A stretch of 64,000 nucleotides of DNA from Panorpa germanica (taxonomy: Eukaryota; Arthropoda; Insecta; Mecoptera; Panorpidae), in the NCBI GenBank assembly GCA_963678705.1, contig OY783203.1, forward strand, positions 18,086,535 to 18,150,534, written 5' to 3'. A program made the translations under genes and the position numbers. The stretch's first letter is position 1. Every line of letters begins with the position of its first letter. Positions 4,073 to 56,375 of the stretch are shown here, piece by piece. The notes under the pieces were generated by a model. That model was not told the DNA's origin. It ran no database searches and was given only the letters and a program-made list of their open reading frames with translations.

Positions 4073-4096
4073 CAACAATCATTTAAGACGCAAAAA

Positions 4097-4446
4097 GGGT
4101 TAAATCTCGGAGTGAAAGGTAATAAGCCAAAAACTTGTAAAAATCTTTATTTTGATATTTTATAAGTTCTCTCAAATATCTCGTGTACCTTCTATTCTCT
4201 GCGCTATATCTCAGGAAGGGTTGATCATACGAAAAAATGCGTAAGATCAAAGTTGTAGAGAATTTTATGCTGAACAGCTTTAATGATAACTCTAAATGTC
4301 ATTTAAAGCATAGGAAGCAAGATATCTGCAAGAAACGATTTATGTGTACACGAGATACTATGATATGTTTGAGAGAACCTATAAAATATCAATACAAAGA
4401 TTTCTACAAGTTTTTAGCTTATTAGCTTCCATTCCGAGGTTAAATC
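4097..4446. mobile_element. MITE-like element with ~100-bp inverted ends
   Basis: The left arm (about 4097-4195) and right arm (about 4335-4446) are inverted copies. Both contain GTTAAATCTCGGA/GG..TTAACCTCGGA, AATAAGC.AAAAACTTGTA, ATTGATATTTTATA and GTTCTCTCAAA. The open frames at 4237-4425 and 4344-4535 lie in the arms and spacer and are not considered genes. No matching flanking duplication was seen, so the superfamily is unassigned. Confidence 0.65.
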
Positions 4447-5150
4447 CTTATTTAACTGGGCTATATGAATATTTACAAGAAAAGTTGATTTTTGAAATGC
4501 CTTTGTACATAATTTGTTCATTTTACAATTCCTGAGCCATGATTATATATAACAAATTAATATTGTTCAAAAATAATAACAAGGGAATTATAAAAGATAT
4601 GCAAATTCATTAAAACTTTTATCATTTCCGTCTTAATTCTTTTATAATTTATTTAAATGTACAAACGCTACTCGCAGTAATGATACTGTTACTGTAATAC
4701 AACAAAGAAATAATTTAATGTTACAAATTAAAAAGTAACTTTTTTCAAGTTCTGTGTGACTAGAATATTAATAATTTATTTAAAAGATTATATTGGATTT
4801 TATTTAATAATAAAAGATGAATATATTTTTATTTTTCATTCATTTTCGCAGTGATATATAAAAATCTATTTTTTTTTAGATAAAAATAAAAATAGACTAA
4901 ATTACATTTAAAAAATAAGATATAGGTTTTAAAAGATATCAGTTTCTTAAATAAAGAATTCTCATAAAATGCCCTTAAGCTGCGTGCAGACGTGCAACTG
5001 AATGACATAAATCAGTCGAGGATTTAGTGTGTACGCAATGTTTGTTGTATCTAGATAAACCTTCACATTCAGATAGAAGGTCATGGAATTAATTAAGAGA
5101 TAAAACATAAAAAAATGACACGAGTGAAAGTTATACCACAAGGCCATGGA
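4447..5150. other. No gene recognised
   Basis: Very AT-rich sequence with homopolymer A and T tracts; no repeat match or motif was noticed. Confidence 0.5.
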
Positions 5151-28162: not shown

Positions 28163-28246
28163 TTGCGAGGCCCCGGGTAGCAGATCTTTGCGAGACCCCG
28201 GGGTGGCAAATTTTTGCGAGGCCTAGGGGCGGCAGATCTTTGCGAG
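28163..28246. repeat. GC-rich tandem repeat, ~29-bp unit
   Basis: There are about three units of the form TTTGCGAGGCCCCGGG(T/G)GCAGATC (28164-28190, 28191-28218, 28219-28246) with substitutions. It is strikingly GC-rich against the AT-rich background. The unit contains the GAGGCCCCGGGCGG string found in the hAT-type end at 28508. Confidence 0.65.
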
Positions 28247-28504
28247 GCACTTTTTCTTTGTATAATTTATCTAAATTGTAACTAAGTATTTTTTATGATA
28301 ATTGACGAGAAATAAAATTTTATATTGGAAGTTTTATAAAAATTAACAAGCACAAAGATGACAAATATTAATGATGATAATCTAAGGTACATGAGTGTCT
28401 TAAAAGATATACGCAGTGATTCTAGTAGGATTTCTAAAGAGCGAGGCGCGAGATTCAAATAAATATATAATAATGAATTTTTCTCCTTGAGTTGTTGTGC
28501 GCGA

Positions 28505-55059: not shown

Positions 55060-55116
55060 ATTCTAATGCTATTAGACTGTAGAAGTATTAAATAACTTTT
55101 ATATAATATATATAAT
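55060..55116. repeat. Left copy of direct repeat flanking the CXC element
   Basis: ATTCTAATGCTATTAGACTGTAGAAGTATTAAATAACTTTTATATAATATATA is repeated with few changes at 56376-56440, just outside the right end of the element. This is far longer than a TSD, so the site was tandemly duplicated before insertion or the flanks belong to a larger repeat. Confidence 0.6.
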
Positions 55117-55249
55117 GCCCGGTCAAATTAAACCAAAAAATAAGAGTAAAGTTACATAAATTCCCACCAAGCTGAAAATCGGTAAGATTGTTTAAAATAT
55201 CATTAAAAACAAAATTTGTTTTTATAAAAGAGTTTTAACTCTTCTTTCT

Positions 55250-55864
55250 ATGTACGGAGCTCTTAAAAAAACTACCTGCTTAGATAAGTATAGATATGCA
55301 TGTTTCGTTAAAAACACCAAAAGTAAAAAACAAGTACAATTAGCTTGTCTTCCTCCAACCTCAGTTGCTGCTCATCAACATCTTTTTAGGGTATATTACC
55401 AAGTTCAAGTGTGGCTTGGTTATCAGCTAGAGCCTACAGACTGGGGTTGGAAGTTGGTCAACAATTCATTAGAACCAGTGCACACTTTACTTCCACCTGC
55501 GCCGGAAAAACTGCTGAACTCGATTTTTTGCAACTGCAAAAAGGGATGCAGTGCTAAATGTGGTTGCAAAAAAGTCGGACTGTTCTGTTCTCCGGCATGT
55601 ACACATTGTCAAGGCCGGTTGTGCTCTAATATTGAATCACCAACAGTAGAGGATCCGTTTGATTCCAACGAGGCAACATGCGATACATCGCTATTGACGC
55701 AGTTTACATGCACTCAGGATGAAGATGAAGAAGAACAAGAAGAACAAGAACAAGAAGAACAAGAACAAGACGAACAAGAACAAGAAGATCAAGAAGAAGA
55801 ACAAGAAGAAGATTTGAAAGTTACGACTCGGACGATTAAATTTCACTACTTTTTTTTAACTTAA
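55250..55864 (+). CDS. TE-associated protein with Cys-rich CXC-like domain and acidic tail
   Basis: The predicted product has 204 residues. Residues 10-60 carry a conserved-looking block (LDKYRYACF ... LPPTSVAAHQH ... RVYYQVQVWLG), followed by EPTDWGW (61-67). Residues 94-125 form a cysteine cluster (CNCKKGC, CGCKK, C, C, C, C), nine Cys spaced like the CXC/TCR repeats of tesmin/TSO1 proteins, which bind zinc and DNA. Residues 156-188 are almost only Glu, Gln and Asp. I recall the WLG...DWGW...CNCK..C block from unannotated arthropod proteins linked to repeats, but cannot name the family. The start chosen is the first ATG after the left inverted repeat (32 bp inside). The frame is intact, which is unusual in this window. 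Catalytic motifs are absent; a DNA-binding role is inference. Confidence 0.7.
   Translation: MYGALKKTTCLDKYRYACFVKNTKSKKQVQLACLPPTSVAAHQHLFRVYYQVQVWLGYQLEPTDWGWKLVNNSLEPVHTLLPPAPEKLLNSIFCNCKKGCSAKCGCKKVGLFCSPACTHCQGRLCSNIESPTVEDPFDSNEATCDTSLLTQFTCTQDEDEEEQEEQEQEEQEQDEQEQEDQEEEQEEDLKVTTRTIKFHYFFLT
55722..55820. repeat. GAAGAACAA trinucleotide-type coding repeat
   Basis: Imperfect GAAGAACAAGAACAAGAA units encode the Glu/Gln tail of the CXC protein. Slippage is likely to vary its length. Confidence 0.85.
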
Positions 55865-56375
55865 ATTGCTTTTATCTTTTCAATCTCTGCTAATATCCAT
55901 TATTTTTCAATAGTTTCAAATTAAACAGGATCAAAACTGACCCGTGGAATAGGCCTACTGGGGAAACCACGTTAAAAAAAACGCGCTAAGTACACTACCT
56001 CATAGGTGGCGAGGAAACGTGTGCATATTATGACGATTACAACTTTTACAACTTTTTGAATCGTTATATCTCAGAAACGGTGGCTCGTAGAGAAAAAAGT
56101 ATTAATAAATTTCTTGTAGATAATTTTATGATCTACAATTTTTGTCTGAGGTATTTTTATGATAAAACTTACCGTTTTGCTGAAAATCGCGAAAAACTCA
56201 TTTCTTTGACTTTTGACCTTGAATAAATTCTTTTCCTTACAGGGGAAAGATGGGGAGTTTTCAAATTTTGTTTTTAATGATATTTTAAACAATCTTACCG
56301 ATTTTCAGCTTGGTGGGAATTTATGTAACTTCGAATGTCTAACTTGACCGGGCTATAATACTAATTTAAAATAAT

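Follow-up and report, generated by a model that had tools for sequence, protein, structure and literature searches.

A non-autonomous DNA transposon copy with an internal deletion, most probably a member of the Academ superfamily, and its longer relatives in the genome of Panorpa germanica

Dada elements generate target-site duplications (TSDs) of 6-7 bp, and KP of the Drosophila P element is a deletion derivative that represses transposition. AcademX is said, in work by Kojima from 2020, to carry its transposase and an XPG nuclease in one protein. A published account (PMC10045372) gives AcademX a TSD of 3 or 4 bp and a nuclease, and gives IS3EU TA..TA termini, a TSD that in most cases is 6 bp and a transposase of the IS3/IS481 type. 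A second paper (PMC5199201) gives insect Academ MITEs a 3-bp TSD. Among the matches listed in our literature search, no paper linked Academ with a CXC domain. Here we compare with these systems a 1.24-kb unit located in a 64-kb stretch of Panorpa germanica DNA (hereafter the window), which lies in contig C21 of a 464-Mb assembly (G000). Most likely the unit is an internal-deletion derivative, no longer autonomous, of an AcademX-like DNA transposon in the Academ superfamily (Table 1).

The first-pass annotation had described the unit as having terminal inverted repeats (TIRs) of ~100 bp. The inverted ends are real, but they are not continuous: unmatched bases, 22 of them at the left end and 12 at the right, separate the 10-bp tips from the 70-bp arms. 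The tip sequence GCCCGGTCAA had exact matches at the two element tips only within the 64-kb window, and the arms are 100% complementary, with zero mismatches; a perfect inverted repeat of 70 bp is not chance. When the element was used as a query, its positions 906-1215 aligned in reverse to the left TIR of several copies, and the window copy was found to be without the inner part of its left TIR, that of the parent being ~330 bp. Elsewhere in the window, a 91-bp inverted repeat (85%) bounds a MITE-like unit of ~360 bp (4092-4452); a stretch inside this unit (4202-4269) shares 72% similarity with subterminal sequence of the element (56062-56130). There is also a G+C-rich tandem repeat at 28163-28248 (26-bp unit, 3.3 copies), the rest of the window being A+T-rich.

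Table 1. Features of the element and its flanks (window coordinates).
Feature	Coordinates	Strand	Basis or remark
Left flank, dispersed-repeat segment	55043..55116	+	Present again on the other side
TATAAT left of element	55111..55116	.	Best read as flank TA + 4-bp TAAT, left terminal TA lost
Probable non-autonomous transposon copy, internal-deletion derivative, 1237 bp	55117..56353	+	Genome copy alignments
Left terminal 10 bp, GCCCGGTCAA	55117..55126	+	Exact match
Left inverted-repeat arm, 70 bp	55149..55218	+	Remnant of ~330-bp TIR
Filler at deletion junction, 21 bp	55219..55239	.	Junction search and parent comparison
204-codon ORF	55250..55864	+	C-terminal part of parent frame from internal Met; last 17 residues out of frame
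Nine-cysteine CXC-like cluster	55529..55624	+	Residues 94-125
Glu/Gln-coding repeat tract, acidic tail	55721..55812	+	
1-nt deletion site relative to L010	55812..55813	+	About 55812; frame shifted
Right TIR at parental length, ~332 bp	56022..56353	-	Query 906-1215 against copies' left TIR, reversed
Right inverted-repeat arm, 70 bp	56262..56331	-	
Right terminal 10 bp, GCCCGGTCAA on the - strand	56344..56353	-	Reverse complement
TATAAT right of element	56354..56359	.	Best read as terminal TA + TAAT
Right flank, second copy of left-flank repeat segment	56359..56433	+	84% identical

Genome searches bore out the proposal that the unit is a mobile element with inverted repeats, since it is multi-copy with common ends, and other copies bounded by GCCCGGTCAA were present. 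Copy counts are lower bounds, because 40 of 875 first-look candidates were scored with the element as the query. At 37 of these 40 places the match started at query position 124 (window 55240) and ended at 1215-1237, with 91-98% identity; the remaining places were the window itself and two shorter pieces (from 410 and from 467), and separate left-TIR matches covered about query 1-102. The one start common to 37 places marks a junction at window 55240, upstream of which each of these places continued differently from the window copy. A 68-bp stretch spanning the junction (55195-55262) had a single genome match, namely the window itself. Among copies with both ends (n=34), 24 measured 2129-2229 bp, and the other ten ranged from 1237 bp (the window copy) to 8090 bp. 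One of them, L010 (7025-9208), measures 2184 bp and shares the termini of the window copy; it has TIRs of ~330 bp and a 405-codon open frame in which the CXC-like block comes after a FEN/PIN-like series of motifs (VVFDGY, DADVLII, GEDIDLL, and GCDTTS, in that order), a series that we take to resemble, in its order, the FEN1/XPG family. A genome search with 303 residues of this parent protein gave at least 130 matches of 41-100% identity (130 of 595 candidates scored).

Six copies on contig C3 (G000:C3:13371500-13523100; L009, L010, L021, L024, L025, and L026) had the same outer flanks. Because these flanks are identical, a larger block holding the six copies has probably been duplicated, with an assembly artefact as the alternative. 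The L009 copy spans 7756 bp and contains a nested 832-codon ORF (L009:3728-6226) with gag/protease features that appear, by eye, to be LTR-retrotransposon-like. Approximately 1.8 kb upstream of the L010 copy, there is a 277-codon ORF (L010:4411-5244) that resembles, again by eye, a bZIP transcription factor.

The longest type found, on the minus strand of C8 (C8:3146624-3152997), measured 6374 bp including both termini. Interruptions divide its coding sequence into stop-to-stop frames of 304, 146, 638, 147, and 123 codons, and it is laid out as an N-terminal Cys-rich piece and a middle region, followed by the nuclease-like and CXC-like parts. Relative to this element, the segment missing from the 2.18-kb copies falls between their positions 448 and 456. 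N-terminal and middle frames also occur at L065, where the match to the 2.18-kb element is limited to 96 bp, and 64 matches were listed when the genome was searched with 455 residues from the middle region. The genome holds a deletion series of 6.4-kb, 2.18-kb (multi-copy) and 1.24-kb forms, the last with a single junction and a 21-bp filler. The first-pass annotation had raised the idea of a derivative keeping only the cysteine-rich module, and had looked to a longer relative with a nuclease upstream of the CXC block as a sign of a transposon; longer relatives do carry additional protein regions upstream, and the nuclease-like motif series is found there.

Five aspartates (D197, D199, D222, D224, and D279) were invariant in a four-row alignment of the nuclease region (alignment A2). 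Pfam gave no gathering-level match for the four nuclease-region members; the best were NYN (E 0.0044) and 5_3_exonuc_N (E 0.014), each in two of the four members, with unrelated weak matches such as FSIP1 (E 0.0063) alongside, and two of the four members scanned (L052 and L053) were near-identical. A PDB search with the nuclease-region profile returned 2qip as its only match (E 0.51). Comparison by hhalign with host exons of XPG/EXO1/FEN1 type (named by eye) gave P 0.13 and a probability of 0.4%, and at this P paired the DAD stretch with EADA and GEDIDL with ITEDSDL. The Pfam XPG_I model matched five genomic places, all outside the element's family, and scanning IMG/VR with alignment A2 gave 168 pattern matches, of which 0 were confirmed. 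The middle region had no Pfam match, and PHROGs returned nothing convincing for three parent pieces. The profile evidence for a nuclease is weak and speaks against a firm filing under Academ. Under that label, the middle region would be the transposase and the nuclease-like part may act in transposition.

Two other views of the family were weighed. An undescribed superfamily other than Academ, sharing the 3-4 bp TSD by chance, would accommodate the observation that no Pfam, PHROG or PDB family confidently matches the protein pieces scanned, but it seems unlikely to us, considering that TSD length, inverted repeats and nuclease-like part all fit AcademX as described. We would give only a slender chance to the view that the parents form a superfamily apart from Academ, in which a FEN/PIN-like nuclease fused to a zinc-binding CXC-like block and to a large middle domain of no known class would transpose elements with TA-ended termini and 3-4 bp duplications, and in which the 2.18-kb forms would have spread because this module aids their own mobilisation.

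Turning to the window copy, its ORF had been singled out as the only clearly protein-like frame of the window; no second ORF in the 64 kb reaches 150 aa. It had also been called intact, and this description does not hold. The ORF matches the final 195 codons of the L010 frame, beginning at an internal Met 210 residues in, and differs from L010 over the common part by four substitutions, one 3-nt insertion and the 1-nt deletion listed in Table 1. In the alignment, all that precedes the internal Met is absent from the window copy, VVFDGY, DADVLII, GEDIDLL and GCDTTS included. Since the ORF starts at an internal Met, has lost the nuclease-like motifs and is frameshifted at its end, it is not intact, and the window copy encodes no complete enzyme. 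The acidic Glu/Gln tail and the cluster of nine cysteines reported earlier are both present, but Pfam CXC/TCR models did not match the cluster, either in the whole window ORF up to E 1 or in its 46- and 100-aa sub-regions up to E 10. Because of this result, we call the block "CXC-like" solely for its cysteine spacing, which looks like that of the Tesmin/TSO1 CXC (TCR) domain. Five weak Pfam matches of the ORF (TLP-20 at E 0.0058, RPA43_OB, and three others) were set aside as they were below cut-offs and lay on or across the acidic tail, and weak PDB matches of the parent frame and the window ORF were unrelated. NCBIfam gave nothing convincing for 157 aa of the ORF. Relatives of the window product had no pattern match in IMG/VR and none were found in phages, and in GTDB genomes 41 pattern matches yielded 0 confirmed by tblastn. 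Rfam gave 0 matches at the gathering threshold, and ARAGORN found no tRNA.

Private substitutions were counted in 32 copies including the window copy (L032 and L048 dropped; the C3 group and the C5 pair each represented by a single copy). Results showed 249 private substitutions in total, 123 of them in frame. The in-frame changes comprised 27 synonymous, 88 nonsynonymous and 8 stop changes versus 27.1, 87.9, and 8.0 expected without selection, and codon positions 1-3 carried 43, 39, and 41 substitutions, respectively. The element frame evolves neutrally in the copies. Since any transposon should accumulate changes neutrally once inserted, these counts argue against a host function and are no test of selection between transpositions. 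By analogy with KP, the window copy or the 2.18-kb form might produce a truncated protein that binds the ends and represses transposition, a role compatible with the Academ reading. Retention of both ends and of a cysteine-rich, potentially DNA-binding module would suit such a repressor, as would the multi-copy 2.18-kb form with its mostly open frames. However, the 1.24-kb form is single-copy with a frameshifted tail, and the private substitutions reveal no selection on the frame, so the chance of this role appears very small.

TSDs were counted on 40 loci, with L014 and L002-L008 left out as repeats of other regions. Six loci were without one end and 34 were both-ended; once copies that had the same right flank were merged (six copies on C3, two on C5), 28 independent flank pairs remained. 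TA abutted the tip on the left in 27 of the 28 pairs, on the right in 27, and on both sides in 26. Outside this terminal TA, a duplication was present in 25 of 28 pairs (23 of 3 bp and two of 4 bp), against 6.2 pairs on average and 14 at most when the flanks were re-paired at random (2000 trials). The three exceptions were the window copy, L037 and L039. A plain 2-bp TA duplication was rejected because the match extends past the TA. In four of five further copies (L050, L051, L052, and L054), TA plus 3 bp could be seen by eye, L053 being unreadable, and the flanks of the 6.37-kb C8 copy itself showed no clear 3-4 bp duplication.

The first-pass annotation had taken TATAAT as a 6-bp duplication hinting at IS3EU or Dada and had suggested aligning copies to confirm the length. 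TATAAT is indeed present on both sides of the window copy, but the aligned copies do not bear out 6 bp as typical of the family. At the GCCC boundary, a direct duplication of at least 3 bp was found in 4 of 28 pairs, below the shuffled mean of 6.1: 6 bp in the window copy, 7 bp in L046, 5 bp in L022, and 4 bp in L039, with the rest under 3 bp. A duplication of exactly 6 bp at this boundary was seen in the window copy only among the 28 flank pairs. Under the family rule, the simplest reading is that the window copy carries a 4-bp TAAT duplication and has lost its left terminal TA; the alternative is a true 6-bp TSD. Membership in IS3EU or Dada with TATAAT as the true TSD would explain the hexamers at both ends, and IS3EU, whose termini PMC10045372 describes as TA-ended, would agree with the TA-ended family termini. 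It is nonetheless highly improbable, since TSD length lends neither superfamily support when 25 of 28 pairs have 3-4 bp outside the TA, and eight protein pieces scanned with Pfam up to E 1 had no DDE/IS3-type match.

Genome searches (40 candidates scored for each flank) showed that both flanks of the element belong to one dispersed repeat, and comparison of five repeat copies showed that the left flank stops ~75 bp deeper in this repeat than the right flank's start. The element sits exactly between two repeat segments that are 84% alike over 75 bp, a position for which simple target duplication does not account. A 75-bp target duplication was rejected as unlikely, because the flanks have diverged to this extent although the element's arms are identical. 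The simplest guess is insertion into an already duplicated repeat.

We give next to no credence to a host gene or exon within a coincidental inverted duplication, or to a domesticated CXC protein. The ORF is the longest open frame of the window and many wider-family copies keep open frames, but the unit is multi-copy with common ends and TSDs, its filler-bearing junction occurs at a single locus, its tail is frameshifted, and its private substitutions fit neutrality.

The full-length type (~6.4 kb) has inverted repeats and TA-ended termini, and the large protein that it encodes comprises an N-terminal Cys-rich part, a big middle region (the presumed transposase), the FEN/PIN-like series, the CXC-like block and the acidic tail. 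A first internal deletion would have given rise to the ~2.18-kb copies with their 405-aa nuclease-like-plus-CXC frame, which then would have spread, and a further deletion, sealed with the 21-bp filler, would have produced the 1.24-kb window copy; we infer this order of deletions, 6.4 to 2.18 to 1.24 kb, from comparison of the forms. Since both ends are kept, the window copy could in principle be moved in trans by the protein of a full-length element, presumably in a cut-and-paste manner. The window unit is thus best regarded as an ordinary defective DNA transposon copy, a relic that reveals its parent family. Because several related families and a degradation series (6.4, 2.18, and 1.24 kb) occur together in this genome, it gives direct access to the TSD rule and protein layout of an element type that has received little study. 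The locus also offers a caution, in that a 6-bp TSD called from one copy in AT-rich DNA can mislead.

Of the known systems, KP provides an analogy, in that internal deletions may likewise keep both ends and part of the coding frame; it differs in that the P element belongs to another superfamily, whereas the window derivative is single-copy with a damaged frame. IS3EU and GingerRoot are similar to the element's family in their TA-ended termini and differ from it in that the family has a 3-4 bp TSD and no IS3-type domain in the eight pieces. Although the window copy itself differs from AcademX by the loss of the middle region and the nuclease-like part, its family resembles AcademX, as described, in its 3-4 bp TSD (25 of 28 pairs) and in its TIRs, which are ~330 bp in the 2.18-kb copies, while in L051-L054 the arms align over some 470-750 bp; the nuclease-like part, which profiles recognise weakly, may be a further likeness.
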